Part shown: positions 1,348-20,942 of the stretch, piece by piece
How the letters are laid out: each line of letters begins with the position of its first letter
Numbering within the stretch: the stretch's first letter is position 1
Assembly (NCBI RefSeq): GCF_019186805.1
Contig: NZ_CP066783.1
Span: 3,299,501-3,363,500 of the forward strand
From: Comamonas fluminis
Lineage (GTDB): Bacteria > Pseudomonadota > Gammaproteobacteria > Burkholderiales > Burkholderiaceae_C
DNA length: 64,000 nt
Direction: 5' to 3'
Notes under the pieces: model-generated
Told to the model about the DNA's origin: nothing
Seen by the model: the letters and a program-made list of their open reading frames with translations, nothing else
Databases searched by the model: none
Program-made: the position numbers and the translations under genes

Positions 1348-1986
1348 TCAGCGCTTGGCGGGTGGTTTGGGCGCTGGCTTGCTCGCAGCAGCGGGGTCCT
1401 GCCAGTGGTATTCCACAAAGCGGCGAATCACCAGACAGCCCGGCGGCGAATCAATCAGCGATACCGACGATGTAGGCTCTTTGGGGTCGGTGTAGACCGC
1501 ATAGGTGGGCAGCAACCTGAACATCTGGTAGCCCGGCAACTCGGACTGCGCAATGCTGGCACAGGTGAATGGAGCCACGGAGATGCGCTCCGCAGCTATC
1601 GTGCAGGTGTTTGAACTGGCGTCCGGCACCGCCGTCACCGACGCTGCTACCCCTGCATTGGGAAACTCCATGCCCACCAGCGAGAAAAACGGCCCGGCAT
1701 CAGGCTGCTTGCGATCCCAGTCCAGCAAAACGTCATGACTGCGACTGCCCTGCACTGTCAGCGCACTCAAGCGCCGAATTGCGGGCAGGCATTTCTGCAC
1801 ACCCACGCTGGCGGCTGCCTGAGCCAGCTTGTCCTGCGGCGCTGCACCTGGTGCGACAGGTGCAGTGGGTGCAGGCTGAACCTGGGCCTGCGCGATCTGC
1901 ATGCCAGCCACACCGGCGACCAGTGCAATGCAACAGACCCAGACCTGCGCGCCATTTTGAATCCAACTCTTGCTGCGCTTAGCCAT
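1348..1986 (-). CDS. Exported four-cysteine protein of unknown function
   Basis: I do not recognise a family. The 212 residues begin with a basic segment and a hydrophobic stretch ending in AQAQ, a convincing Sec signal peptide (cleavage near residue 35). A short Pro/Ala-rich linker follows, then a compact domain with four cysteines (VQKC, NTC, FTC, PGC), suggesting two disulfides in the periplasm or at the cell surface. The C-terminus is Pro/Lys-rich. The start lies only 6 nt after the stop of the upstream DUF2827 gene, so it is almost certainly translated from the same transcript as the two DUF2827 genes. By position it is a candidate accessory protein of the adhesin locus; that is inference. 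Confidence 0.8.
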   Translation of the reverse strand: MAKRSKSWIQNGAQVWVCCIALVAGVAGMQIAQAQVQPAPTAPVAPGAAPQDKLAQAAASVGVQKCLPAIRRLSALTVQGSRSHDVLLDWDRKQPDAGPFFSLVGMEFPNAGVAASVTAVPDASSNTCTIAAERISVAPFTCASIAQSELPGYQMFRLLPTYAVYTDPKEPTSSVSLIDSPPGCLVIRRFVEYHWQDPAAASKPAPKPPAKR

Positions 1987-1992
1987 GAAAAA

Positions 1993-3126
1993 TCACTTCT
2001 GATAAAGCTGTTCAATGGCTTGCGTATAAGCCAGGATATTCGCCGCAGCCAAGGGATGCAGCGTTGCCAGAAAATCGCTGGCCTGTGAGCGATAGCTTGC
2101 AAGATTGCGGTCATGCGAAGCAAATGCTTCGCAAAGAGCGTGCCCCCCTTCCTCGCAATCAAAGCCGTGATAGCGATAGCCGCAGTCACCAATCAGGTGA
2201 GAGTTATGAATCAATGGGTAAGCGCCGTACAAAGCTTCGTAATAGACATAGTTCTGCGCGTTTTCCCACTGATGGCTGATCACGGCATCGCATTGCTTGG
2301 AGAGCAACTGCCAGATGGGAAACCGCCCTTCAAATGTGGCAATGCCGTGACGAACAATGTCCAGGCTGTGAGCGAATCCGTTGAAGACGGGGTCTTCCTT
2401 CAGATGCACGGTGTTATAGACCTGAACCCTCTCGGTAATATCGGGCTGGGTGCGGTGCGCCACCTCGCATACAAGCATGGGAATATGACTGGTCTTGACC
2501 ATGCAGACATTGGGCTCGAACATACCCATGCGCCAGCGCTTTCGGCCAGGCTGGTAGCCAAACTGGCCCACGCTGCCAGCTTCCTGCATGGCCCGCTCCA
2601 GCAGCTCAGGGCTCCATAAATGCGGAACCACGCGTACCGGTGCCCTGAAAGTACTGGCAAAGTACGGCACACAGGTATTGATGTATTCCGGCAAGGTCCA
2701 GACCTCATCGTAGGGAGCACCTGTAATCAGCAAGCCGTTGGGCTTATTGAACACCATGCGTTCAATGTCGATGACGTAGTCGTTTCCCACCCTCATGGAG
2801 ACCACTTTGCGCCCGGTCTCGCGAAACGCAATCATCCAGTCTTTGCTCAACTGCGCACTCATCTCGATCATCAGATCAAGCTGGTGCATCGCCGCATCCA
2901 TGTTGATCACAGGAACCGGAGATTCCTTGAGGAAAGCCATGGCATCGGTCTCATCACCGCCGCCACCGCCGGCCACCAGAAACACTTCAGAGACTCTGGG
3001 TGAGCGCTGCAGCAACTGGGCCAAAAAAAGGCAGTTCTGGAAGATGCCGTTTTCCCAAAGCGACTGATTCCCTTTTCGGACAAACAGCGAGATGCCGACT
3101 TTGAGCTTTTGGTCGGAGCGCATCAT
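1993..3126 (-). CDS. DUF2827 family protein, putative GT-B-like glycosyltransferase (copy 2)
   Basis: A 377-residue member of DUF2827, a family without an assigned reaction. The N-terminal part (KVGISLFV, then ENGIFQNCLFLAQLL) looks like the first Rossmann half of a GT-B fold. The C-terminal part has the family block SHQWENAQNYVYYEALYG, then PLIHNS and a GYRYHGFDCEEGG segment, which resembles the acidic sugar-nucleotide-binding region of GT-B enzymes. No signal peptide, so it is cytoplasmic. It overlaps the preceding DUF2827 gene by 4 bases (ATGA). GGAGG lies 4 nt before the first ATG and 7 nt before a second ATG at 3123; the latter spacing is better. The glycosyltransferase role is inference. 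Confidence 0.85.
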   Translation of the reverse strand: MMRSDQKLKVGISLFVRKGNQSLWENGIFQNCLFLAQLLQRSPRVSEVFLVAGGGGGDETDAMAFLKESPVPVINMDAAMHQLDLMIEMSAQLSKDWMIAFRETGRKVVSMRVGNDYVIDIERMVFNKPNGLLITGAPYDEVWTLPEYINTCVPYFASTFRAPVRVVPHLWSPELLERAMQEAGSVGQFGYQPGRKRWRMGMFEPNVCMVKTSHIPMLVCEVAHRTQPDITERVQVYNTVHLKEDPVFNGFAHSLDIVRHGIATFEGRFPIWQLLSKQCDAVISHQWENAQNYVYYEALYGAYPLIHNSHLIGDCGYRYHGFDCEEGGHALCEAFASHDRNLASYRSQASDFLATLHPLAAANILAYTQAIEQLYQK

Positions 3127-4265
3127 GCAGCCTCCATCAAATGAGGTGCATCACTGCACAAATCCTTAAGCATCTGAATATGGGTGCGAACATTAGTCTC
3201 ACAGACCGGATCCAGGGCCGCAAACAACTTTTGCGTGGCCGCTCGTTGGTCAGGCAGGCACTCGTCATGATGCGCACTGGCCCACTGCAGCTTTTTTCCA
3301 CCCTCCGCGGCCTCAAACCCTGGGTAGAAATAGCCCGCGCCGAAACTATGGAGCCAAGCGGAGTTATGGACCAGCGGATAGTCGCCATACAGCGCATCCA
3401 TATAGCTGTAGTTTTGCTCGTTGTCCCACTGGTGGGAGACAACGGCATCAGCGTGCTGCGCCATAAAACCTACAACGTCATGCCGTCCATGAAAGCAGGC
3501 TTTATGGTCTTTGACCAGATCCAGCGAGTTTGCAAAATGCAGCATGGTCGGGTGATCTTTCATGTGCAAAGTATTGAGCACATGCATCATTTGCAGGGCT
3601 TCACGATCTGCACGGTAAGCCTCATCACACACCAGCATGGAAATGCTTGAGGTTTTCACCACCGAGACATTAGGCTCAAAAATGGCGGCCCGCAGCGCAC
3701 GAGGGCCCTTTTGCGTGGAGTCCCAGCCATAGCGATAGCCTTTCTCTGTGACTTCCTGGACGCGCTTTTCCAGAAATGAAGAACTCCAGAGATATGGGGT
3801 TTGCCTGACAGGACAGCGATTGAGCACACGCATCATCGATGCATGCTGTATGTATTCCGGAAGCAGCCAGATCTCATCGCAGCGCCCAGCAGCCGGGAAA
3901 AAACCCCGACGCCCAAAGATAGTGCCTTCAATCAATCCTGCATGGGGTTGTCCCACACAGTAATAGACGACTTTCTTGCCACGGGCACGCTGCAAAGCCA
4001 GCCATTGATGGTGTAGAGCACCGGCCAGCTCAATAATGACATCTACTTGATCACTCGCCTGCTCCTGATTAAGCAAGGTCAAGTTTTCACGCCCCAGATC
4101 AACCTGGTCAGCCATACAGCTTTGATCGCCAACGTTGATTAAAACGACGGACCGCACAAATGGGACCGCCTTGAGCGCCTTAGCCAAAAAAAACACGTTT
4201 TGCCCCATGCCGTTTTCCCAGATGTTCTGGTTGGCATGCGTGATGACAGATATACCAATTCGCAT
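3123..4265 (-). CDS. DUF2827 family protein, putative GT-B-like glycosyltransferase (copy 1)
   Basis: 380 residues, clearly paralogous to the other two DUF2827 proteins here. It starts MRIGISVITHANQNIWENG and shares the pattern D-E-I-W-L-L-P-E-Y, P-Y-L-W-S, E-P-N-V-S-V-V-K and SHQWDNEQNYSYMDALYG followed by PLVHNS and a Y-F-Y-P-G-F-E-A-A-E-G-G segment. No signal peptide or membrane segment, so it is cytoplasmic. It is the first gene of a three-gene unit with tight coupling (4-bp overlap, then a 6-nt gap). Its ATG lies 15 nt beyond the T-run of the adhesin terminator, so most transcripts reaching it would come from readthrough or from a promoter inside the adhesin end. Base composition looks less GC-rich than the TCA genes. 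Confidence 0.85.
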   Translation of the reverse strand: MRIGISVITHANQNIWENGMGQNVFFLAKALKAVPFVRSVVLINVGDQSCMADQVDLGRENLTLLNQEQASDQVDVIIELAGALHHQWLALQRARGKKVVYYCVGQPHAGLIEGTIFGRRGFFPAAGRCDEIWLLPEYIQHASMMRVLNRCPVRQTPYLWSSSFLEKRVQEVTEKGYRYGWDSTQKGPRALRAAIFEPNVSVVKTSSISMLVCDEAYRADREALQMMHVLNTLHMKDHPTMLHFANSLDLVKDHKACFHGRHDVVGFMAQHADAVVSHQWDNEQNYSYMDALYGDYPLVHNSAWLHSFGAGYFYPGFEAAEGGKKLQWASAHHDECLPDQRAATQKLFAALDPVCETNVRTHIQMLKDLCSDAPHLMEAA

Positions 4266-4280
4266 AAATTGCCTGATAGT

Positions 4281-4314
4281 AAAAAAACAAGGCCCTCAAC
4301 ACGCTGAGGGCCTT
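4281..4314 (-). terminator. Intrinsic terminator after the adhesin gene
   Basis: Perfect 10-bp stem (AAGGCCCTCA / TGAGGGCCTT, 4289-4298 and 4305-4314) with a 6-nt loop. On the minus strand it is followed by seven T (4287-4281). It lies 37 bp past the adhesin stop and directly in front of the DUF2827 start at 4265, so it can set the ratio of adhesin to DUF2827 transcripts. Confidence 0.9.
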
Positions 4315-4350
4315 GCTGGCAACTAGCCAGTCACTCCTGACTTGAACCTA

Positions 4351-7300
4351 TCACTTCCACTTCCAGCCTACACCAGCGTTGATGCCCCATTCGCGGCCTG
4401 TTGTGGAAATACCTGCTCCCCAAGACATATTACCTTCCCTGGACAGTGCCTTGAAGTTCACGCCCACCGCGCCATAGCCGCGGTAGCCGCCCACACCAAC
4501 GCCCAGAGCCTTCTCACCGGGGTAGAGCGTTGGCATATAAGTGCCCGACATGGCAAACGCCATCGCAACACCAGAGTAGGCAATGCGAGCCACGTCACCA
4601 ATCTGGCTCTGCAAAGCCCCCATCTGCATTGCCTGCTGGCCTTCCATGGCCTTGAGCTGGCTCACGTTCACAGCATCGCTATTGGCTGTACCCGCTGCCA
4701 CACCCGTAATCTGACGGTACTGGCCGCTGGAGGCATCGCCCACCGAGACTGCTGCCTGTGTGCTGGTCGTCGCATTCACCGCTGCCGCCTGCTGCTGGCT
4801 GGCCCCAGCAGCCACATAACCCGCAACACCCGCAGCTGTACTGGCCACCGATCCAGCACCAACCGCAACGCCAGAGGACTGCTGCACCACTGCGCCAAAG
4901 CCAATGGCCGTGCCCTTGGAAATATTGCTACTAGCGCTTACTGGCGTTCCACCGGCGTCTGCCCCATCGCCTACTGCAACACCGCCGCCACCAGCCTTCG
5001 CACCGGCACCAATGGCTTGTGAGCCCGTTGCCAATGCCCCGGTACCAATCGCAATCGCATTGGTTCCAGTCGCTTGTGCCCCAGATCCCATCGCTACCGA
5101 AGACTCTCCGCTTGCCAGAGCAGAAGGGCCTACAGCAATGGCATCCGTCCCCGTTGCACGAGCATCCGGCGCAGACGAATTCGTCTTGAAGTACTTGGTG
5201 CCATTGGCGTACAAATTGCTCAGTGCATCGCCCACGTTATTGGCACTGACAGTGGATCCATCCGCCTTTTGCGTCGTATAGGTTGGCGCAGAAATTTCGC
5301 CGGTAACAGGGTTGTATGTAGAACCGCCACCCAGCGCAGCTGCAGTGCCGTCACCAGATCGGTCGACCTTGCCATTCACCGTACTGATTGACGTAGACAA
5401 ACTGCCAATTGCCGCACCAGCAGAGCTAAGACTTGTCGACAGGCTGCTCAGGTTGCTGTTCGTTGTGCTCAGCCCCGTAGACAAGCTACCCAGCCCTGTC
5501 GATGTGGAAGTCGACAAGCTGTCCAGGTTGCTATTGGTCGTGCTCAGGCCTGTAGACAAGCTGCTCAGGCCGGTCGAAGTCGACGTCGACAGGCTGTCCA
5601 GGTTGCTATTGGTCGTGCTCAGGCCGGTTGACAAGCTGCTCAGACCAGTAGAAGTCGAAGTCGACAAGCTGTCCAGGTTGCTATTCGTCGTGCTCAGGCC
5701 CGTAGACAAGCTGCTGAGGCCCGTCGAAGTCGATGTCGACAGGCTGCCCAGGTTGCTATTGGTCGTGCTCAAGCCCGTAGACAAGCTGCTCAGACCGGTC
5801 GAAGTCGAGGTCGACAGGCTGCCCAGGTTGCTATTGGTCGTGCTCAAGCCCGTAGACAAGCTGCTCAAACCGGTCGAAGTCGAGGTCGACAGGCTGCCCA
5901 GGTTGCTATTGGTCGTGCTCAGACCCGTAGACAAGCTGCTCAGGCCCGTCGAGGTGGAGGTCGACAGGCTACCCAGGTTGCTATTGGTCGTGCTCAGGCC
6001 GGTGCTCAGGCTGCTGACGCCCGTGGACAAGCTGCTCAGGCCCGTCGATGTGGAGGTCGACAGGCTGTCCAGGTTGCTGTTCGTCGTGCTCAGACCCGTA
6101 GACAAGCTGCTCAAACCGGTCGAAGTCGAGGTCGACAGGCTGCCCAGGTTGCTATTGGTCGTGCTCAGACCCGTAGACAAGCTGCTCAGGCCCGTCGAGG
6201 TGGAGGTCGACAGGCTACCCAGGTTGCTATTGGTCGTGCTCAGACCCGTAGACAAGCTGCTCAGGCCCGTCGAGGTGGAGGTCGACAGGCTACCCAGGTT
6301 GCTATTGGTCGTGCTCAGGCCGGTGCTCAGGCTGCTGACGCCCGTGGACAAGCTGCTCAGGCCCGTCGATGTGGAGGTCGACAGGCTGTCCAGGTTGCTG
6401 TTCGTCGTGCTCAGACCCGTAGACAAGCTGCTCAGACCGGTCGAAGTCGAGGTCGACAGGCTGCCCAGGTTGCTATTGGTCGTGCTCAAGCCCGTAGACA
6501 AGCTGCTCAAACCGGTCGAAGTCGAGGTCGACAGGCTGCCCAGGTTGCTATTGGTCGTGCTCAGACCCGTAGACAAGCTGCTCAGGCCCGTCGAGGTGGA
6601 GGTCGACAGGCTACCCAGGTTGCTATTGGTCGTGCTCAGGCCGGTGCTCAGGCTGCTGACACCCGTAGACAAGCTGCTCAGACCTGTAGAAGTCGAAGTC
6701 GACAGGCTGTCCAGGTTGCTGTTCGTCGTGCTCAGGCCGGTGCTCAGGCTGCTGACGCCCGTGGACAAGCTGCTCAGGCCCGTCGATGTGGAGGTCGACA
6801 GGCTGTCCAGGTTGCTATTGGTCGTGCTCAGGCCCGTGCTCAGGCTGCTGACGCCGGTGGACAAGCTGCTCAGGCCCGTCGAGGTGGAGGTCGACAGGCT
6901 ACTCAGATTGCTGTTGGTCGTGCTCAGGCCCGTGCTCAGGCTGCTGACACCCGTGGACAAGCTGCTCAGGCCGGTCGAGGTGGAGGTCGACAGGCTGTCC
7001 AGGTTGCTGTTCGTCGTGCTCAGGCCGGTGCTCAGGCTGCTGACGCCCGTGGACAAGCTGCTCAAACCGGTCGAGGTGGAAGTCGACAGGCTGCTCAGGT
7101 TGCTGTTGGTCGTGCTCAGGCCCGTGCTCAGGCTGCTGACACCCGTAGACAAGCTGCTCAGGCCGGTCGAGGTGGAGGTCGACAGGCTGCTCAGGTTGCT
7201 ATTGGTCGTGCTCAGGCCGGTGCTCAGGCTGCTGACGCCCGTGGACAAGCTGCTCAGGCCCGTCGATGTGGAGGTCGACAGGCTGTCCAGGTTGCTATTG

Positions 7301-10300: not shown

Positions 10301-13300
10301 GTGGTGCTCAGGCCGGTGCTCAGGCTGCTGACGCCCGTGGACAAGCTGCTCAGGCCGGTCGAAGTCGAGGTCGACAGGCTGCTCAGGTTGCTGTTGGTCG
10401 TGCTCAGGCCGGTGCTCAGGCTGCTGACACCCGTGGATAAGCTGCTCAAACCCGTCGAGGTGGAAGTCGACAAGCTGCTCAGGTTGCTATTGGTCGTGCT
10501 CAAGCCGGTGCTCAGGCTGCTGACGCCGGTGGACAAGCTGCTCAGGCCGGTCGAGGTGGAGGTCGACAGGCTGCTCAGGTTGCTATTGGTCGTGCTCAGG
10601 CCGGTGCTCAGGCTGCTGACACCCGTGGACAAGCTGCTCAGACCCGTCGAGGTGGACGTCGACAGGCTGCTCAGGTTGCTATTGGTCGTGCTCAGGCCGG
10701 TGCTCAGGCTGCTGACACCCGTGGACAAGCTGCTCAAACCCGTCGAGGTGGACGTCGACAAGCTGCTCAGGTTGCTATTGGTCGTGCTCAGGCCCGTGCT
10801 CAGGCTGCTGACACCGGTGGACAAGCTGCTCAGGCCGGTCGAAGTCGATGTCGACAGGCTGCTCAGGTTGCTATTGGTCGTGCTCAGACCCGTGCTCAGG
10901 CTGCTGACACCCGTGGATAAGCTGCTCAGGCCGGTCGAGGTGGAAGTCGACAGGCTGCTCAGGTTGCTGTTCGTCGTGCTCAGGCCCGTGCTCAGGCTGC
11001 TAACACCGGTGGACAAGCTGCTCAAACCTGTAGAAGTCGATGTCGACAGGCTGCTCAGGTTGCTGTTGGTCGTGCTCAGGCCGGTGCTCAGGCTGCTGAC
11101 ACCCGTGGATAAGCTGCTCAAACCCGTCGAGGTGGAAGTCGACAAGCTGCTCAGGTTGCTATTGGTCGTGCTCAAGCCGGTGCTCAGGCTGCTGACGCCG
11201 GTGGACAAGCTGCTCAGGCCGGTCGAGGTGGAGGTCGACAGGCTGCTCAGGTTGCTATTGGTCGTGCTCAGGCCGGTGCTCAGGCTGCTGACACCCGTGG
11301 ACAAGCTGCTCAGGCCTGTAGAAGTCGAGGTCGACAGGCTGCTCAGATTGCTGTTCGTCGTGCTCAGGCCCGTGCTCAGGCTGCTGACACCCGTGGACAA
11401 GCTGCTCAAACCCGTCGAGGTGGAAGTCGACAAGCTGCTCAGGTTGCTATTGGTCGTGCTCAGGCCCGTGCTCAGGCTGCTGACACCGGTGGACAAGCTG
11501 CTCAGGCCGGTCGAAGTCGATGTCGACAGGCTGCTCAGGTTGCTATTGGTCGTGCTCAGACCCGTGCTCAGGCTGCTGACACCCGTGGACAAGCTGCTCA
11601 GGCCGGTCGAAGTCGATGTCGACAGGCTGCTCAGGTTGCTGTTCGTCGTGCTCAGGCCCGTGCTCAGGCTGCTAACACCGGTGGACAAGCTGCTCAAACC
11701 TGTAGAAGTCGATGTCGACAGGCTGCTCAGGTTGCTGTTCGTCGTGCTCAGGCCCGTGCTCAGGCTGCTAACACCGGTGGACAAGCTGCTCAAACCTGTA
11801 GAAGTCGATGTCGACAGGCTGCTCAGGTTGCTATTGGTCGTGCTCAGGCCCGTGCTCAGGCTGCTGACACCCGTGGACAAGCTGCTCAGGCCGGTCGAAG
11901 TCGATGTCGACAGGCTGCTCAAGTTGCTATTGGTCGTGCTCAGACCCGTGCTCAGGCTGCTGACGCCGGTGGACAAGCTGCTCAAACCGGTCGAAGTCGA
12001 GGTCGACAGGCTGCTCAGGTTGCTATTGGTCGTGCTCAGGCCGGTGCTCAGGCTGCTGACGCCCGTGGACAAGCTGCTCAGGCCGGTCGAGGTGGAGGTC
12101 GACAGGCTGCTCAGGTTGCTGTTGGTCGTGCTCAGGCCGGTGCTCAGGCTGCTGACACCCGTGGACAAGCTGCTCAGGCCGGTCGAAGTCGATGTCGACA
12201 GGCTGCTCAGGTTGCTATTGGTCGTGCTCAGACCCGTGCTCAGGCTGCTGACACCCGTGGACAAGCTGCTCAGGCCGGTCGAGGTGGAAGTCGACAGGCT
12301 GCTCAGGTTGCTGTTCGTCGTGCTCAGGCCCGTGCTCAGGCTGCTAACACCGGTGGACAAGCTGCTCAAACCTGTAGAAGTCGATGTCGACAGGCTGCTC
12401 AGGTTGCTGTTGGTCGTGCTCAGGCCGGTGCTCAGGCTGCTGACACCCGTGGATAAGCTGCTCAAACCGGTCGAGGTGGAAGTCGACAAGCTGCTCAGGT
12501 TGCTATTGGTCGTGCTCAGGCCCGTGCTCAGACTGCTGACGCCCGTGGACAAGCTGCTCAGGCCCGTCGAAGTCGATGTCGACAGGCTGCTCAGGTTGCT
12601 GTTCGTAGTGCTCAGGCCCGTGCTCAGGCTGCTGACACCCGTGGACAAGCTGCTCAGGCCGGTCGAGGTGGAAGTCGACAGGCTGCTCAGGTTGCTATTC
12701 GTCGTGCTCAGACCGGTGGACAAGCTGCTATTGCTGGTGCTTAGCTGGCGAACAGTTACTGCATCAGAAAGAGCTGAGCCATCGGCCACATTGGTCAGAC
12801 GGCGCTCCGCGCCTGCACTGCCAATTGAGACTTCAGATGTTGGTGCAGCCGTGCCAGTGATGTAGCCTGCGCCTGTTGGTGCAGCTGCACCTGTCGCACT
12901 CCCCGAGCCGATAGCGACGGAGTTGGCGTAGTTGGCTTTTGCTGTATCACCCATCGCCACTGCGCCAGCTGCTGCGGCTGTGGAATTATTGCCAAGCGCA
13001 ACAGAGCCTTTCCCAATGGCATTGTTTCCATAACCAATGGCCACCGCGCCTTGAGCCGCTGTAGAACCAGCAGTATCGCCCGCTGCGATGACGTTGTTAC
13101 CCATCGCAACGGCGCCATCGCCATTCGCGGTATTCGGGTCACCGATAGCTACAGCGCCATTACCGATCGCTGTCTGAGAGCGACCAATCGCCACTGCACC
13201 GCCAGCTGCCGTGGTCGAATTCGCCTTGGCCCCAGTGCCAATGGCAACGTTCTGACCTACCGACCCGCTGAGGGCACCTGTGCCTTGTGCAATGCCATTG

Positions 13301-15993
13301 GCTCCAAGCACGGTTGCTTGCCCCACCGCAATTCCCGAAGTCGCAGCACTGACAACGTTCGCAGCTGTACCCAGGGCAACCGAATTTCCAGATGATGCAT
13401 TGCTATATGCACCGACAGCAGTGGCATTGTCTCCACCAGTCAGCGCCAAATTACCCAGCGCAACAACGTTGTTAGCCGTAGTGGTAGGGACTGATCCTAC
13501 CGCATAGGGAACACCACCTTTCACAAATGTGGCGCCATCGTTGTTGCTGGTAACTCCAGTCGCGGCGCCACGCCCCATTGCAACGTTGCCGCTGCCAACA
13601 AGACCGTAACCGCTATAAGAGCCACCACTCAAGTTATCGAAACCGGTTATGCGGGAACCCGCCCCAGTTCCCAACGCCGCATTGTTATCCCCCAGAACAT
13701 TGGTGGCAGAAGCAAAGCCAATCGACGTATTGTTCCTGCCTGTAATGTATTGACCAGAATTTATGCCCAATGCTGTATTGTTGTCGCCAGAAGTTTGCTT
13801 ACCCGAATTGGTGCCAATAGCAACGACACTGGCACTGCTAAGGGCAGCTCCAGAGCTATCCCCTGCACTCGTACCGATGAAAACACTCGATCCTGACGAG
13901 TTCGCACCAGTCCCTGCGCCCAAACCGATGGATACATCGCCAGTAGACTTAGTCTGAGCCTTTACACCAAGCGCAAAAGAAGATGCTGCGGAGGCATTGG
14001 ATGAGGTACCGATAGCGACAGCATTTGCGCCATTGGCAATGGCGGTTAAACCAGAATCACCACCAATGGCCACCGCACCAGCCGCATTGGCTATCGCCGC
14101 AGCACCAATGGCAACTGCCGCAACACCGTTTGCCTTGGAACCCGCCCCAGCGCCACCAAAGCCCCCCAGAGCCATAGCACCATTACCACTGGCATTGGCT
14201 CCAGCCCCCAGTGCAACAGCTCCTGCGCCATTAGAAATGGTTCCGGTATTACCGGCATTGCCACCAATCGCCACGGCGTTATTGCCTGTCGCCTGTGCGC
14301 GATCACCAATTGCGACTGCCGATTGAGACCCAGAGGTATTTGCACTCCAGCCAATCGCAACCGCTCCGTTTTGCGGTGCCAATGCACTGTATCCAATGGC
14401 AATACCTGCATGAACCGCATTTGCATTTTCACCAATAGCAATAGCAGTAACACCAGAAGATCCACCCAGCATGGTTGCCTGCGCACCTTTACCAATTGCA
14501 ATAGTGCTTGCCCCGGTTCCCAGGTCATTGGTATATGCATTGGTACCCAATGCTATTGCAGATGCCCCACCTGCCTGGCTTCCTGCACCTATAGCCGTCG
14601 CATATGAGGAGTTGGCTTTGGCGCCTTGCCCCATTGCAACTGAAGAGAGACCACCAGCGACAGCGTTTGCGCCGATGGCAAAAGCATTTGCATTACTCGC
14701 AGTGCTGCTTACGCCAAATGCCATGGAATTAATACCTGAGGCCAGGCCTTGACTTCCGAGTGCAATGGCGTTGGAAGCCGAAGATCCAGTACTTGCCCCA
14801 CCAATTGCAGTACTAGAAGCGCCTTGCGCATTCGAATTTTGACCAATCGCGGTACTACCAGACGCAGCATTAGCCAAACGTCCGACTGCAATGGCATTAG
14901 CGCCGGAAGCGTTTGCTGCACCGATTGCCAAACTATCAGTACCGGCAGCCATTGAACCTGCACCAAAAGCAATGGCATTTGCTTGCTGAGCTTTTGATCC
15001 AACGCCCACTGAAATGGCATTAGCACCAGACGAGTTCCCGCCAGAAATGGCCAAGCTTTGAACAGCTGAAGCAACCGAACCAGCACCTAACACCATTGCA
15101 CCTGATGCACCATCCGCGACAGATGCACCTACACCAATCGCCGTAGCACCAGTGGCGTTGGCCGCCACGGTCGCCCCAGCCCCGATAGCCGAGGCGCCCA
15201 CAGAGTTCGCCCCCACCGCTGCTGAGCGCCCTAAAGCCAGAGCGTTCGTTGATGCAGCATAGGCGCCCGCACCCATGGCTGTCGCACCATCCTGCAGCGC
15301 ATTGGTGTAGGAGCCAATTGCCGTTGCATTAGTCACTGCGGTGTTTCCAGATTGACCTGCATTAGCTTTGTAACCAATTGCAACCGTATAGTCACCATAT
15401 GCTCTGGAGTTATCACTAATCGCAGTTGCCACCAAGCCCGCAGATGCAGAGTTATTACCCACCGACATTGAATAATTGCCAGTGGCAGTCGCACCTTGCC
15501 CCAGTGCAATAGCGCTATCGGCACTGCTTCTGGAGCTGACTCCAATCGCAATACCGGTGCCATTATTAGTAGAGCTAGTGACCCGGGCATCCTTGCCTAT
15601 TGCGATACCCCCGCCCATAACGGTAGACGTGGACACAGTAGCGCCTGTGCCAATGGCGATTGAATTTGCCGTACCTCCTGTGGTGGCGGCAGTTCCCGCA
15701 GAACCACCACCGATCGCTATTGAGCCAGTCCCCATCCCACCCGTGGTGCTTCCACCCGCGGCATATTGCGCCTGTGCATCCCCCCCAGGCGCCGCCAACA
15801 CCAGCGCCCCCAGCGCGATCTGTGCGGCAACCGCCAAAACGGAGAACGAACTGCCAGCAACCATCGAGCCCGCACTACTCCGCCCCGCCGTCACACTTGA
15901 TCGCGAAGGCTTACCATGCGCCGATTGAATCTCGGACACAGCAACCCATGCACCCAGGGCTTCGTTCCAGATCGTGCGGTAAGAGCGATTCAT
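4351..15993 (-). CDS. Giant trimeric autotransporter adhesin (YadA-like, type Vc secretion)
   Basis: About 3,880 residues. The N-terminus MNRSYRTIWNEALGAWVAVS is an extended signal peptide (ESPR) with a hydrophobic core near residues 50-75. Then come YadA-type head repeats (AIG/A.G motifs, about 75-1075), a neck (DAVTVRQL), stalk 1 (about 1102-1901), a small second head (about 1915-2020) ending DAVNVSQL, stalk 2 (about 2037-3514), a third head (about 3560-3770) with DAVNVSQL, and a C-terminal YadA membrane anchor of about 75 residues ending WKWK. I chose ATG 15993, not 15999: AAAGGA abuts the upstream ATG but sits 6 nt before 15993, and ESPRs begin MN.(I/S)YR. It forms surface homotrimers through its own beta-barrel. 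Its own terminator is at 4281-4314. Confidence 0.96.
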   Translation of the reverse strand: MNRSYRTIWNEALGAWVAVSEIQSAHGKPSRSSVTAGRSSAGSMVAGSSFSVLAVAAQIALGALVLAAPGGDAQAQYAAGGSTTGGMGTGSIAIGGGSAGTAATTGGTANSIAIGTGATVSTSTVMGGGIAIGKDARVTSSTNNGTGIAIGVSSRSSADSAIALGQGATATGNYSMSVGNNSASAGLVATAISDNSRAYGDYTVAIGYKANAGQSGNTAVTNATAIGSYTNALQDGATAMGAGAYAASTNALALGRSAAVGANSVGASAIGAGATVAANATGATAIGVGASVADGASGAMVLGAGSVASAVQSLAISGGNSSGANAISVGVGSKAQQANAIAFGAGSMAAGTDSLAIGAANASGANAIAVGRLANAASGSTAIGQNSNAQGASSTAIGGASTGSSASNAIALGSQGLASGINSMAFGVSSTASNANAFAIGANAVAGGLSSVAMGQGAKANSSYATAIGAGSQAGGASAIALGTNAYTNDLGTGASTIAIGKGAQATMLGGSSGVTAIAIGENANAVHAGIAIGYSALAPQNGAVAIGWSANTSGSQSAVAIGDRAQATGNNAVAIGGNAGNTGTISNGAGAVALGAGANASGNGAMALGGFGGAGAGSKANGVAAVAIGAAAIANAAGAVAIGGDSGLTAIANGANAVAIGTSSNASAASSFALGVKAQTKSTGDVSIGLGAGTGANSSGSSVFIGTSAGDSSGAALSSASVVAIGTNSGKQTSGDNNTALGINSGQYITGRNNTSIGFASATNVLGDNNAALGTGAGSRITGFDNLSGGSYSGYGLVGSGNVAMGRGAATGVTSNNDGATFVKGGVPYAVGSVPTTTANNVVALGNLALTGGDNATAVGAYSNASSGNSVALGTAANVVSAATSGIAVGQATVLGANGIAQGTGALSGSVGQNVAIGTGAKANSTTAAGGAVAIGRSQTAIGNGAVAIGDPNTANGDGAVAMGNNVIAAGDTAGSTAAQGAVAIGYGNNAIGKGSVALGNNSTAAAAGAVAMGDTAKANYANSVAIGSGSATGAAAPTGAGYITGTAAPTSEVSIGSAGAERRLTNVADGSALSDAVTVRQLSTSNSSLSTGLSTTNSNLSSLSTSTSTGLSSLSTGVSSLSTGLSTTNSNLSSLSTSTSTGLSSLSTGVSSLSTGLSTTNSNLSSLSTSTSTGLSSLSTGVSSLSTGLSTTNSNLSSLSTSTSTGLSSLSTGVSSLSTGLSTTNSNLSSLSTSTSTGLSSLSTGVSSLSTGLSTTNSNLSSLSTSTSTGLSSLSTGVSSLSTGLSTTNSNLSSLSTSTSTGLSSLSTGVSSLSTGLSTTNSNLSSLSTSTSTGLSSLSTGVSSLSTGLSTTNSNLSSLSTSTSTGLSSLSTGVSSLSTGLSTTNSNLSSLSTSTSTGLSSLSTGVSSLSTGLSTTNSNLSSLSTSTSTGLSSLSTGVSSLSTGLSTTNSNLSSLSTSTSTGLSSLSTGVSSLSTGLSTTNSNLSSLSTSTSTGLSSLSTGVSSLSTGLSTTNSNLSSLSTSTSTGLSSLSTGVSSLSTGLSTTNSNLSSLSTSTSTGLSSLSTGVSSLSTGLSTTNSNLSSLSTSTSTGLSSLSTGVSSLSTGLSTTNSNLSSLSTSTSTGLSSLSTGVSSLSTGLSTTNSNLSSLSTSTSTGLSSLSTGVSSLSTGLSTTNSNLSSLSTSTSTGLSSLSTGVSSLSTGLSTTNSNLSSLSTSTSTGLSSLSTGVSSLSTGLSTTNSNLSSLSTSTSTGLSSLSTGVSSLSTGLSTTNSNLSSLSTSTSTGLSSLSTGVSSLSTGLSTTNSNLSSLSTSTSTGLSSLSTGVSSLSTGLSTTNSNLSSLSTSTSTGLSSLSTGVSSLSTGLSTTNSNLSSLSTSTSTGLSSLSTGVSSLSTGLSTTNSNLSSLSSTVSNIYDKGTKYFHANSTGADSQAIGADSVAIGPNAVSVGANSIAMGNGANASAANSIALGAGSSAATGAQTGYAAYGVGPSSSAGEVNVGNRTVTGVAPGMNPEDAVNVSQLSTTASSLSTGLSTTNSNLSSLSTSTSTGLSSLSTGVSSLSTGLSTTNSNLSSLSTSTSTGLSSLSTGVSSLSTGLSTTNSNLDSLSTSTSTGLSSLSTGVSSLSTGLSTTNSNLDSLSTSTSTGLSSLSTGVSSLSTGLSTTNSNLSSLSTSTSTGLSSLSTGVSSLSTGLSTTNSNLSSLSTSTSTGLSSLSTGVSSLSTGLSTTNSNLSSLSTSTSTGLSSLSTGVSSLSTGLSTTNSNLSSLSTSTSTGLSSLSTGVSSLSTGLSTTNSNLDSLSTSTSTGLSSLSTGVSSLSTGLSTTNSNLSSLSTSTSTGLSSLSTGVSSLSTGLSTTNSNLDSLSTSTSTGLSSLSTGVSSLSTGLSTTNSNLSSLSTSTSTGLSSLSTGVSSLSTGLSTTNSNLDSLSTSTSTGLSSLSTGVSSLSTGLSTTNSNLDSLSTSTSTGLSSLSTGVSSLSTGLSTTNSNLSSLSTSTSTGLSSLSTGVSSLSTGLSTTNSNLSSLSTSTSTGLSSLSTGVSSLSTGLSTTNSNLDSLSTSTSTGLSSLSTGVSSLSTGLSTTNSNLDSLSTSTSTGLSSLSTGVSSLSTGLSTTNSNLSSLSTSTSTGLSSLSTGVSSLSTGLSTTNSNLSSLSTSTSTGLSSLSTGVSSLSTGLSTTNSNLSSLSTSTSTGLSSLSTGVSSLSTGLSTTNSNLSSLSTSTSTGLSSLSTGVSSLSTGLSTTNSNLDSLSTSTSTGLSSLSTGVSSLSTGLSTTNSNLSSLSTSTSTGLSSLSTGVSSLSTGLSTTNSNLDSLSTSTSTGLSSLSTGVSSLSTGLSTTNSNLSSLSTSTSTGLSSLSTGVSSLSTGLSTTNSNLDSLSTSTSTGLSSLSTGVSSLSTGLSTTNSNLDSLSTSTSTGLSSLSTGVSSLSTGLSTTNSNLSSLSTSTSTGLSSLSTGVSSLSTGLSTTNSNLSSLSTSTSTGLSSLSTGVSSLSTGLSTTNSNLDSLSTSTSTGLSSLSTGVSSLSTGLSTTNSNLSSLSTSTSTGLSSLSTGVSSLSTGLSTTNSNLDSLSTSTSTGLSSLSTGVSSLSTGLSTTNSNLDSLSTSTSTGLSSLSTGVSSLSTGLSTTNSNLGSLSTSTSTGLSSLSTGLSTTNSNLGSLSTSTSTGLSSLSTGLSTTNSNLGSLSTSTSTGLSSLSTGLSTTNSNLDSLSTSTSTGLSSLSTGVSSLSTGLSTTNSNLGSLSTSTSTGLSSLSTGLSTTNSNLGSLSTSTSTGLSSLSTGLSTTNSNLGSLSTSTSTGLSSLSTGLSTTNSNLDSLSTSTSTGLSSLSTGVSSLSTGLSTTNSNLGSLSTSTSTGLSSLSTGLSTTNSNLGSLSTSTSTGLSSLSTGLSTTNSNLGSLSTSTSTGLSSLSTGLSTTNSNLGSLSTSTSTGLSSLSTGLSTTNSNLDSLSTSTSTGLSSLSTGLSTTNSNLDSLSTSTSTGLSSLSTGLSTTNSNLDSLSTSTSTGLGSLSTGLSTTNSNLSSLSTSLSSAGAAIGSLSTSISTVNGKVDRSGDGTAAALGGGSTYNPVTGEISAPTYTTQKADGSTVSANNVGDALSNLYANGTKYFKTNSSAPDARATGTDAIAVGPSALASGESSVAMGSGAQATGTNAIAIGTGALATGSQAIGAGAKAGGGGVAVGDGADAGGTPVSASSNISKGTAIGFGAVVQQSSGVAVGAGSVASTAAGVAGYVAAGASQQQAAAVNATTSTQAAVSVGDASSGQYRQITGVAAGTANSDAVNVSQLKAMEGQQAMQMGALQSQIGDVARIAYSGVAMAFAMSGTYMPTLYPGEKALGVGVGGYRGYGAVGVNFKALSREGNMSWGAGISTTGREWGINAGVGWKWK
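5452..9883 (-). repeat. Adhesin stalk 2: 36 units of 96 bp and 13 units of 75 bp
   Basis: Measured from successive GTTGCT landmarks, spacing is 96 bp for 33 units between 6715 and 9883. Toward the anchor, units of 75 bp appear: three 75s then one 96, a 321-bp superunit present three times (5752-6073, 6073-6394, 6394-6715), then four more 75s down to 5452. The 96-bp unit encodes 32 residues of the type SLSTSTSTGLSSLSTG / VSSLSTGLSTTNSNLS, 20 of them Ser or Thr. The 75-bp unit lacks exactly VSSLSTG, one heptad, so coiled-coil register is kept. Some units carry Asp or Gly instead of the last Ser. Confidence 0.97.
7021..9708. repeat. Two adjacent 1,344-bp blocks (14 units each) differing at one base
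   Basis: Block 1 is 7021-8364 and block 2 is 8365-9708. I compared all 14 units pairwise; the only difference I found is in unit 13 (CTCAGGCCCG against CTCAGACCCG). Neighbouring units inside a block differ from each other at many synonymous positions, so the identity reflects a recent duplication of 14 units and not uniform repeat identity. Confidence 0.93.
10291..12690 (-). repeat. Adhesin stalk 1: 25 units of 96 bp with a worn 672-bp superperiod
   Basis: Landmarks at 10291 and 12691 are exactly 25 x 96 bp apart. All units encode the Ser variant of the 32-residue repeat. Units 2, 3 and 6 are identical to units 9, 10 and 13, and units 7 and 8 are close to 14 and 15. This shows a 7-unit (672-bp) superperiod that has partly decayed, unlike the near-perfect 1,344-bp duplication in stalk 2. 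Confidence 0.93.
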
Positions 15994-16054
15994 ATCCATT
16001 CCTTTGGCTTACGCCAGGGCCTTTTTTTGTGCCCAAGACTCACTTAAATATTTA

Positions 16055-16086
16055 CTTTTTGTAATCCCAACGCTGGGTACAAAAAG
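16055..16086. promoter_or_regulatory. Strong inverted repeat in the adhesin leader
   Basis: Arms CTTTTTGTA-(AT)-CCCA and TGGG-TACAAAAAG, 13 pairs with one 2-nt bulge and an ACGC loop. It ends 61 bp before the adhesin ATG. No T-run follows on either strand, so it is not a standard terminator. It could be a regulator site or a 5' untranslated RNA structure. Confidence 0.6.
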
Positions 16087-16143
16087 CTTCTCGGTATTTG
16101 GCCTCGTTTATATATCGATACATATTTTTACGTTACATTCCCT

Positions 16144-16231
16144 TGTAGGACAAAATCAGACGTAAAGGTACGCCTTCACTAGATAACTAATGTAGGAGCA
16201 AACTTTTATCCGGAAAGGAATTTATCCTACA
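16144..16231. promoter_or_regulatory. Three TGTAGGA heptamers (two direct, one inverted)
   Basis: TGTAGGA occurs at 16144-16150 and 16191-16197, and its inverse TCCTACA at 16225-16231. The last two form an inverted pair 27 bp apart. Their clustering in a regulatory region suggests a transcription-factor site; the factor is unknown. Confidence 0.35.
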
Positions 16232-16474
16232 AAATACGAAATTGAATGAAATCAAATAAATTTCAATTAAATCAATGACTTACAAAAACACGCCACCTAA
16301 AGAAGAAATACACCCATCAAAAATCACTACTCGAAAAAATTACCATGAGAATGAGTTTTATGAAAAATATTATTAAAATATGTATCAATAAAATTCAAAA
16401 TTGTTAAACAACTTCTTCTTATTGATGACAGTTACAAATTCATTTACATTTTCAAAATCTTCCAAGGAGTAAAT

Positions 16475-16927
16475 ATGTTTCAACGATTCCCTTTAATGCT
16501 GTGCAGCGCACTGGTGGCGGGCTTGCCCCAGCTGGTTCTGGCGCAGAGTCAGGACTCTGCTGACGAGATCATTGCGGCCGGCTTCAGCGCGCTGCAGACG
16601 ATTGACCGTGCGCAAAGCGACCCCAGCCAGATGGAATCGCTGTGGACGGGCACCTCCGCCTTCGTCAAGACCAAGATGTCGAAAGACGAATTCATCTCAG
16701 GCATTCGACAGGCACGTGCGCGGTATGGCGCCATCAGCCTGCGCACCTGGGCGGGTGTGATTCGCATTCGCCATGGCGCCAACAGTGATCTGCCTGAGGG
16801 CCTGTATGCCAATGCCGACTTTTCGACACGCCTGCCCAGCGGCAGCGTGATCTTTGAAAAAGTGACTTTCCGGTTTGAGCCGAATGGTTGGCAGATGATT
16901 GGCTACGTTCCGCGCGAAAACCAGTGA
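16475..16927 (+). CDS. Exported DUF4019 family protein
   Basis: 150 residues with a Sec signal peptide (hydrophobic stretch ending LVLAQS near residue 25) and a small domain matching DUF4019. Visible landmarks are the SLWTGTSAFVK segment, WAGVIRIR and a terminal VTFRFEPNGWQMIGYVP. The family is thought of as periplasmic and has no established function. AAGGAG lies 6 nt before the ATG, an excellent ribosome site. A DUF2827 gene follows after 33 nt on the same strand, so the two are probably cotranscribed from the AT-rich divergent region shared with the adhesin. The neighbourhood suggests a role in building or sensing the adhesin, but nothing in the sequence proves it. Confidence 0.82.
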   Translation: MFQRFPLMLCSALVAGLPQLVLAQSQDSADEIIAAGFSALQTIDRAQSDPSQMESLWTGTSAFVKTKMSKDEFISGIRQARARYGAISLRTWAGVIRIRHGANSDLPEGLYANADFSTRLPSGSVIFEKVTFRFEPNGWQMIGYVPRENQ

Positions 16928-16960
16928 ACCAAAGCGGCGCACCGCGTCTACATTCAAGCC

Positions 16961-18100
16961 ATGGCTAACAAAGAACTTTTACGCATTGGCATCACCATTG
17001 GTCTGCACAGCGCCAACGAGACGCTGTGGAACAACGGCATCAAGCAAAACGCAGTGTTTCTGGCCGAGGCCTTGCGGCATTGCCCGAATGTTGCCTCGGT
17101 AACGCTGGTGAACACTACGGCGGTAGAAGTCAGTGCCGCCCTGCCCTGGGATTTGAAGCGCTGGCCCACCCGCAGTTTCGAGCAGGCCAAGGACCAGCTT
17201 GATGTGCTGATTGAACTGGGGGGCCAGATTAGCGCAGAGCAGACAAGCTATCTGAAGCAGCGTGGTGCCAGACTGGTTTCGTATTGCTGCGGGTTTGAGT
17301 ATGTGCACATGATGGAAAGCATCATGTTCGGCCGGCCCGGAGCGGGCGCAAACCTGTTTATCAATCAGCGCTATGACGATATCTGGATGGTGCCGCAGGT
17401 GGACCATATCAGCCGCTCGTATTTCGAGGTGCTGCGCCGCCAGAGCGCCAAGCCGGTGCCGTTTGTCTGGAGCCCGGTTTTTATCGAGCAGCGCAGCGCG
17501 GCGCTGCCTGCAGGTGGCATTTACCAGCCGCGCCCCGGGCAGGCCAGACGACTGAGTGTGCTGGAGCCCAATATCAATGTGGTGAAGTTCTGCCTGTACC
17601 CAGCACTGATTGCCGAGCAGGCCTATCGCAACGACCCAGAATCCATTGCTTTGCTGCAGGTGACCAATGCGCTGGAGATGGCGCAGAAGAATATGGATTT
17701 CATTGCGCTGATGAACCAGCTTGATATTGTGCAAGCGCACAAGGCGGTGTTTCTGGGGCGCTTTGACACGCCGCAGTTTCTGGCCGAGAAGACAGATATC
17801 GTGGTTTCACACCAGTGGGAGAACCCGCTGAACTATCTGTATCTGGAGGTTTGCTGGCAAGGCTATGCGCTGGTGCACAACGCACATCTGTGCCCGGATC
17901 TGGGCTATTACTACCGCGATAACGATGTCAGCGAGGGGGCGGCGCAACTGGGCCGGGCGATACGCGAGCATGACGCCAATGCCGATGCATACCGCCACCG
18001 GCAACGCGAGCTGATTCGTCGCTATTTGCCCGAAACACCGGCGGTGACTGCCCAATATACGCAGCTGCTTGAAGAGTTGATAGCACGCCCCCTACGCTGA
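16961..18100 (+). CDS. DUF2827 family protein, putative GT-B-like glycosyltransferase (copy 3)
   Basis: 379 residues. It has the same skeleton as the two DUF2827 proteins on the other side of the adhesin: RIGITIGLHSANETLWNNG at the start, DDIWMVPQ and VPFVWSP in the middle, EPNINVVKF, then SHQWENPLNYLYLEV near residue 280. GYYYRDNDVSEGA follows, shaped like the acidic donor-binding motif of GT-B enzymes. No signal peptide, so cytoplasmic. It lies behind the DUF4019 gene and ends at a terminator shared with acnB. No clear ribosome site precedes the ATG, so translation may be coupled to the upstream gene. The enzymatic role is inferred from shape and context only. Confidence 0.85.
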   Translation: MANKELLRIGITIGLHSANETLWNNGIKQNAVFLAEALRHCPNVASVTLVNTTAVEVSAALPWDLKRWPTRSFEQAKDQLDVLIELGGQISAEQTSYLKQRGARLVSYCCGFEYVHMMESIMFGRPGAGANLFINQRYDDIWMVPQVDHISRSYFEVLRRQSAKPVPFVWSPVFIEQRSAALPAGGIYQPRPGQARRLSVLEPNINVVKFCLYPALIAEQAYRNDPESIALLQVTNALEMAQKNMDFIALMNQLDIVQAHKAVFLGRFDTPQFLAEKTDIVVSHQWENPLNYLYLEVCWQGYALVHNAHLCPDLGYYYRDNDVSEGAAQLGRAIREHDANADAYRHRQRELIRRYLPETPAVTAQYTQLLEELIARPLR

Positions 18101-20841: not shown

Positions 20842-20942
20842 GGGTTCTCTCCAATGGTTTTTTAAAAAAGGCTGCGCGTTCAGGCGCGAATTACAGGGAT
20901 GCTGCCGAGTGCGAGGCAGCAGCATCCCTCAGCCTTGCTGGA

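Follow-up and report, generated by a model that had tools for sequence, protein, structure and literature searches.

A locus in a 64,000-nucleotide stretch of Comamonas fluminis DNA (contig NZ_CP066783.1, positions 3,299,501–3,363,500 of the forward strand; hereafter, the window) encodes a giant trimeric autotransporter (TAA) adhesin together with three genes of the DUF2827 family. We propose, with a probability of roughly three in four, that this locus is a dedicated protein-glycosylation system in which the DUF2827 trio acts on the SLST-repeat stalk of the adhesin. An earlier reading of the same DNA, made from the sequence only, had arrived at a glycosylation interpretation, which is supported overall by our computations: these give a GT-B fold for DUF2827, three classes within the family, proximity of its genes to TAAs, and an association of SLST stalks with DUF2827.

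A giant adhesin with an SLST-repeat stalk

The adhesin and the three DUF2827 genes are arranged in the window as follows.

4351–15999, minus strand: giant TAA adhesin of 3,882 aa, the proposed acceptor, recognised from its open reading frame (ORF), Pfam matches to ESPR, YadA_head and YadA_stalk, composition and repeats; 213 SLST motifs
15853–15993, minus strand: ESPR, the extended signal peptide of type V secretion, residues 3–49 (PF13018, E 7.9e-18)
10279–12741, minus strand: stalk array 1, residues 1087–1907, 32-aa SLST units (composition, tandem repeats)
9943–10278, minus strand: ordinary head/neck island separating both arrays, residues 1908–2019 (composition)
5425–9942, minus strand: stalk array 2, residues 2020–3525, 32- and 25-aa units (composition, tandem repeats)
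3123–4265, minus strand: DUF2827 class A, predicted GT-B glycosyltransferase (PF10933, E 2.3e-113; class from tree, fold from homology with the modelled class C copy)
1993–3126, minus strand: DUF2827 class B, predicted GT-B glycosyltransferase (PF10933, E 5.7e-142; class from tree, fold from homology with the modelled class C copy)
16961–18100, plus strand: DUF2827 class C, predicted GT-B glycosyltransferase and the copy modelled (PF10933, E 8.6e-146; AlphaFold2 model, fold matches)

Pfam matches give the adhesin the ESPR/signal peptide, YadA heads and coiled stalk of a type Vc protein. The YadA anchor PF03895 is unlisted for it, and a profile built from its C-terminus finds TAAs that PF03895 recognises (L123, L141). 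Array 1 (821 aa) is 62.5% Ser/Thr and has zero charged residues, and array 2 (1,506 aa) is 60.8% Ser/Thr with 20 charged residues, each of them Asp. Both arrays sum to 2,327 stalk residues with 1,428 Ser/Thr, close to the sequence-only estimate of an almost uncharged stalk of about 2,280 residues, about 1,400 of them Ser/Thr (roughly 62% in the main unit).

The main stalk unit is 32 aa long, SLSTSTSTGLSSLSTGVSSLSTGLSTTNSNL(S/D/G), and contains three SLST, bringing the whole chain to its 213 copies against 6.4 expected from shuffles; the 25-aa variants equal the 32-aa unit minus seven residues. Leu and Val follow one another in the 32-residue unit at spacings of 8,3,4,3,4,7,3, which fits three heptads and one hendecad, and because of this hydrophobic spacing we read the stalk as probably a coiled coil with Ser/Thr on its surface rather than a disordered sequence. 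Codon differences per pair among 61 full units averaged 7.4 synonymous versus 0.45 non-synonymous, and since the former so greatly exceed the latter, the repeats are not the product of chance or mere DNA slippage; their protein sequence is held by selection. Long antisense ORFs opposite the arrays (window 5312–10258, plus strand, 1,648 aa; 10262–12865, plus strand, 867 aa) most likely arise as a side effect of codon usage in the repeat.

DUF2827 proteins form three classes and are modelled with a GT-B fold

A whole-genome search found three DUF2827 genes and no others in the window's genome, all of them flanking the TAA and matching PF10933, which confirms the sequence-only claim that three such genes enclose the adhesin at the positions listed above. 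Proteins A and B are 33–35% identical to C, whose closest relative with a named source is a C. testosteroni protein (76% identity). A one-genome-per-species scan, whose query was weighted to class C, yielded 156 relatives, and we retained the 80 best loci; in a wider set of 100 loci, 99 contained DUF2827 reading frames, 237 in total. In a tree of 196 DUF2827 sequences we observed three clades (support 0.91, 0.88 and 1.0) with one window gene in each. The class content of 81 units (the 80 loci and the window) was ABC in 44, C only in 24, BBC in six, ABCC in three, AC in three and ABBC in one, with the constant presence of class C due to selection by the weighted query; of the 24 C-only loci, 20 have a contig end no more than 10 kb upstream of C.

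The AlphaFold2 model of DUF2827-C (pLDDT 92.7, pTM 0.90) is a confident, full-length GT-B fold in which two Rossmann-like domains span the whole chain, in agreement with the fold expected from the sequence-only reading, and its structural matches include WaaG, TarM, GtfA and SdgB. For A and B the same fold is predicted by homology to the class C model.

Most DUF2827 loci lie near trimeric autotransporters

A TAA is present in the fetched flank (up to 10 kb) of 69 of the 80 DUF2827 loci. In 65 of these it is an ORF of 150 aa or more that matches an ESPR or anchor profile, often directly adjacent and sometimes some kilobases off, and in four more (L025, L048, L056, L057) it is a TAA fragment or a frame-broken TAA. 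Among the 11 other loci, ten genomes could be searched, and YadA heads were found elsewhere in all ten. The position of the TAA relative to DUF2827 varies (upstream, downstream, on both sides or unlinked), and conjugative plasmids of B. glumae and B. ambifaria (L142, L143) carry an adhesin, an OmpA-family protein and three DUF2827 genes together. On these plasmids the OmpA-family gene directly follows the TAA, an arrangement that to us is reminiscent of TpgA beside AtaA. In a B. cenocepacia record, four DUF2827 genes adjoin a TAA with 74 SLST in the fetched part, which may or may not be the published adhesin BCAM2418.

Across the order, DUF2827 exceeded the cut-off in 7 of 399 genomes and YadA heads occurred in 29, namely in five of the seven DUF2827-positive genomes versus 24 of the 392 others; in the remaining two positives (G113, G280) a TAA anchor adjoins the DUF2827 genes. 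Plain counting of TAAs, with heads in 29 of 399 genomes, was too blunt a marker, and the stalk motif separated the classes better.

SLST stalks and DUF2827 are associated in cis and in trans

We called a TAA frame enriched if it held at least four SLST copies and three times the shuffled count. Enrichment was found in 60 of 64 linked frames, which are not all independent (L127 and L012 are probably one genome) and were gathered with TAA profiles that, having been grown from linked TAAs, may favour that type, versus none of the 22 frames obtained from 15 of the 23 TAA-bearing, DUF2827-free genomes. Before this count we dropped ORFs shorter than 400 aa, long masked runs (L019), a wrong-strand ORF (L026) and region L120, because its genome (G311) has a DUF2827 match below the cut-off; five regions contributed no frame (L112, L113 and L139 from DUF2827-free and L124 and L126 from positive genomes). 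Unlinked frames of DUF2827-positive genomes were enriched in 5 of 12 cases, four of the five in G007, where the trio has no adjacent TAA. The second giant TAA in the window's genome (3,264 aa, L125) has no SLST.

The association also holds at a distance. In ten genomes without an adjacent TAA (20 regions, five of them without a testable frame), 15 of 17 testable TAA frames were enriched, covering eight of nine genomes; G400 gave 0 of 1, G406 had no testable frame, and in G399 (L004) the missing neighbour may reflect a contig end only.

At the level of whole genomes, we counted a codon-level SLSTGLST pattern with the reversed pattern as control, using a threshold of five hits that was chosen after the control counts had been seen. 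In 43 genomes picked from the order (seven positive, one below the cut-off, 23 with YadA heads only and 12 with neither), three had at least 40 hits, all of them DUF2827-positive, and the others had at most two. In the 249 genomes of the family of G285, which we take to be Burkholderiaceae, at least five hits occurred in 40 of 67 DUF2827-positive genomes compared with 2 of the 182 negatives (Fisher p 8.6e-26), and any threshold from 3 to 10 gave a similar contrast; stratified over eight genera the link gave p 3.6e-12 (single genera 4e-5 to 1), these values being too small because genomes were treated as independent, a problem that the within-genus test lessens. In the window's own family (299 genomes), the threshold was reached in 4 of 8 positive versus 0 of 291 negative genomes. 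The association of enzyme genes with an SLST adhesin that a dedicated glycosylation system entails is observed, and it is specific, both in cis and in trans. The co-occurrence anticipated by the sequence-only reading likewise stands, in the 69 of 80 flanks and in the genome-wide link to SLST stalks in two families.

These data bear directly on two other explanations. DUF2827 proteins could be glycosyltransferases for a surface polysaccharide, a lipopolysaccharide sugar or a glycolipid, with adhesins merely co-located in a surface-function island: GT4-like folds are common in polysaccharide assembly, WaaG and TarM are among the model matches, and Hydromonas DUF2827 genes sit among glycosyltransferase-like genes with no TAA beside them. 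We consider this unlikely, as the link is to one stalk motif and not to TAAs generally (0 of the 22 DUF2827-free frames carry SLST), holds in trans as well, and was accompanied by no recurrent polysaccharide cluster among the shared neighbours, for which no systematic test was made. Slightly less likely still, in our view, is that SLST stalks and the trio form one co-inherited cassette, the motif being merely a structural type of coiled coil and the target of the enzymes lying elsewhere. The presence of the cassette on conjugative plasmids and the patchy distribution of DUF2827 (7 of 399 genomes of the order over the cut-off) speak for such co-inheritance, yet the arrangement varies widely while the genus-stratified association persists, and where DUF2827 genes have no TAA next to them, SLST TAAs are encoded elsewhere in the genome.

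Two genomes carry SLST stalks without the usual enzymes. G550 has an SLST TAA, interrupted by an IS66 element, and no DUF2827 match; in G464, a protein with a head and an SLST stalk terminates in an OmpA domain and has an IcmF-related gene as its neighbour, while a GT25 gene and a protein with weak similarity to GT9 (below the cut-off) lie no more than 10 kb away. Either case would be consistent with SLST stalks being broken or changed where DUF2827 is missing, although two cases prove nothing. The IS66-family insertion at L145 (1492–3933) sits in the TAA richest in SLST of those from DUF2827-free genomes. The OmpA-ended product at L146 (8796–14596), with its TAA-like head and SLST stalk, is directly followed by an IcmF-related gene and is possibly a fusion of adhesin and type VI parts.

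Evidence that weighs against stalk glycosylation by DUF2827

Several observations count against our interpretation, beginning with the enzymes themselves. The canonical GT4 E-x7-E is not kept: on inspection of the alignment by eye, N288 stands with E/D296 at that spacing, positions that we take to be equivalent to the GT4 site. Some Ser-rich adhesin systems have non-catalytic partner proteins, and the replacement of the first Glu by Asn, together with the possibility that three related proteins form one complex, would suit degenerate GT-B chaperones or adaptors for the unfolded stalk. We nevertheless regard this as very improbable, because the 22 invariant positions common to all three classes, which include Glu202, Asn204, Lys209, Arg223 and His306 in the alignment, would exceed the usual need of a folding scaffold.

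Sequence comparison was similarly unhelpful to the glycosyltransferase assignment. PDB sequence searches with a single protein and with a profile returned no match to DUF2827, and hhalign against two Glycos_transf_1 proteins of the window's genome found nothing (0.9%). Among the matches listed for 45 DUF2827 members, with E values of up to 10, there were eight Pfam families, and Glycos_transf_1, Glyco_transf_9 (BAHT, GT9-like) and GT41 (NGT/HMW1C) were absent from them. These routes (PDB search, Pfam at loose thresholds, PHROGs, NCBIfam and hhalign) gave nothing useful, and the predicted fold is settled by the structure model alone. The hydrophobicity maximum over 19 residues is 1.08 in B, 1.24 in C and 1.67 in A, the last being about the customary limit for a membrane helix, and a cytoplasmic location of the proteins is weakly supported.

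On the side of the adhesins, Snodgrassella TAAs are ordinary in Ser/Thr (about 22%), which makes Ser/Thr content unsuitable as a universal marker; even so, no 4-mer is commoner than SLST in the one Snodgrassella TAA inspected. Four of the 64 linked frames fall below the SLST threshold (L050, L061, L067, L132), and 27 of the 67 DUF2827-positive genomes have fewer than five SLSTGLST hits. For G285 the low count follows from a limit of the pattern, since its linked TAA has 95 SLST and one SLSTGLST. The SLST adhesins BoaA, BoaB and BMA1027 belong to B. pseudomallei and B. mallei (PMC2955633, PMC4021183), species that may or may not carry DUF2827. The genomes compared are related, and a cassette can move as a unit. 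Finally, in the literature searched neither DUF2827 nor an SLST stalk was credited with an activity, a sugar or a modified peptide, and DUF2827 occurred there as a term only in a cysteine-annotation database paper.

The stalk might instead be glycosylated after export by the general O-oligosaccharyltransferase PglL, with DUF2827 building or decorating the lipid-linked glycan. The conserved Burkholderia PglL system does prefer Ser (PMC12645811), but the glycan described in that text is conserved and comes from a five-gene cluster, and the target Ser lie in disordered periplasmic regions (PMC12645811). DUF2827, unlike a genus-wide system, is over the cut-off in just 67 of the 249 genomes of the G285 family, and of all the explanations weighed here we give this one the least credence.

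Proposed mechanism and its significance

Returning to dedicated glycosylation by the DUF2827 trio, we envisage that the adhesin would be made with its extended signal peptide and that, before export, soluble GT-B enzymes A, B and C would use nucleotide sugars in the cytoplasm to modify SLST-type Ser/Thr of the stalk, the glycan probably being begun by one class and extended or varied by the others. The enzymes would recognise SLST, or a somewhat longer motif that includes it. The modified chain would then be exported by Sec and trimerise to a coiled coil with Leu/Val in its core, so that the end product on the surface would be a sugar-coated, almost uncharged rod. In this scheme we infer the catalytic activity, the stalk as acceptor, the cytoplasmic site and the order of action.

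With somewhat less assurance, we favour a wider claim, namely that DUF2827 is a new family of protein O-glycosyltransferases and the trio a third cytoplasmic class for type V adhesins, with a sequon of SLST or longer that is amplified up to hundreds-fold, yielding sugar-coated rods, serving several adhesins in trans and spreading on plasmids. If correct, this would provide a function for a domain of unknown function and name enzymes for the SLST repeats that have been reported from Burkholderia adhesins since 2010 and for which glycosylation was only suggested. It would also offer a predicted sequon and a three-gene set open to testing, and might become a tool for the cytoplasmic glycosylation of Ser/Thr repeats. 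In DUF2827-bearing environmental and symbiont betaproteobacteria, one would then expect fibrous adhesins with a sugar coat, which standard proteomics could overlook.

Accessory and neighbouring genes

The rest of the locus comprises the following features.

1348–1986, minus strand: four-Cys protein, putatively exported, optional accessory (four invariant Cys in the mature part)
16475–16927, plus strand: DUF4019 protein, optional accessory, 33 bp upstream of DUF2827-C (PF13211, E 2.6e-15)
16000–16474, no strand: AT-rich divergent intergenic region between the TAA and DUF4019–DUF2827-C, from sequence and composition; presumed site of the promoters
18256–20925, minus strand: aconitase B, next after DUF2827-C on the opposite strand (ORF/family)

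The layout suggests a minus-strand order of TAA, DUF2827-A, DUF2827-B and four-Cys gene, with the A and B genes overlapping by 4 bp, and a divergent DUF4019–DUF2827-C pair on the plus strand. The four-Cys and DUF4019 genes are frequent but optional, occurring in 25 and 20, respectively, of the 100 loci of the wider set. The accessory roles assigned to them in the sequence-only reading are weakly supported by these counts, and the four-Cys protein yields no usable fold match: its four Cys are invariant over 19 sequences, it has no Pfam or NCBIfam match, and its model (pLDDT 88.9) has no clear match. Its closest relative with a named source is from Comamonas sp. (71% identity). In two Collimonas loci, a further ORF lies directly upstream of the four-Cys gene; the one at L080:8096–9313 matches the MORN repeat family, and that at L082:8292–9263 is similar.

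Further genes adjoin DUF2827 in particular lineages. In Hydromonas duriensis (L074, 5593–14994), the DUF2827 genes lie among GT34-, GT7C- and methyltransferase-type genes with no TAA there, and at least four SLST TAAs are encoded elsewhere in the genome; L081 resembles L074 by its ORF starts, and in L083 a GT34-type gene lies 3.5 kb from the DUF2827 genes. A conserved 285-aa protein is encoded directly downstream of DUF2827-C at L013:5458–6315, in 17 further Variovorax loci of the 80 and in L086, with a median gap of 17 bp (17 loci clustered). It matches PHROG 1574, of unknown function, and has no homologue in the window; its WIDADIG motif, to our eyes, resembles a GT-A DxD site.

Comparison with known systems

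A review of type V secretion describes two classes of cytoplasmic glycosyltransferases for type V adhesins, NGT and BAHT (PMC8151025). BAHT enzymes (Aah and TibC, acting on AIDA-I, TibA and Ag43) are dedicated to autotransporters and modify Ser/Thr in the cytoplasm before export (PMC8151025), as we propose here. Their substrates, however, are described as classical beta-helix autotransporters rather than TAAs with a coiled-coil stalk, and a single enzyme acts there whereas three DUF2827 paralogues, with no Glyco_transf_9 among the matched families, are present here. HMW1C-like NGT enzymes (HMW1C and those for the TAAs of K. kingae and A. aphrophilus) likewise glycosylate type V adhesins, TAAs included, in the cytoplasm (PMC8151025), but the linkage is to Asn sequons, in contrast to the Ser/Thr-rich acceptor region proposed here, and GT41 is not among the families matched by DUF2827.

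The Ser-rich repeat adhesins of Gram-positive bacteria (GtfA/GtfB) and the staphylococcal SdgB system resemble the present one in that Ser-rich repeats are glycosylated inside the cell (PMC7948813, PMC6973325), and GtfA and SdgB are structural matches of the DUF2827-C model. They differ in using other protein families and an accessory Sec export route, whereas the adhesin here is of type Vc.

The closest parallel on the acceptor side is formed by the Burkholderia TAAs BCAM2418, BoaA, BoaB and BMA1027, which share the SLST stalk motif and for which the available parts of the published texts name no enzyme. SLST repeats were published for BoaA/BoaB (PMC2955633) and for BMA1027 (PMC4021183), and O-glycosylation of the BCAM2418 repeats was suggested from their composition, with no enzyme in the text available (PMC7142374). 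In B. cenocepacia proteomics, BCAM2418 was detected only at residues 205–282 of 2,775 (PMC11054960), a gap that fits a modified stalk of the kind proposed here but also the likely lack of tryptic sites.

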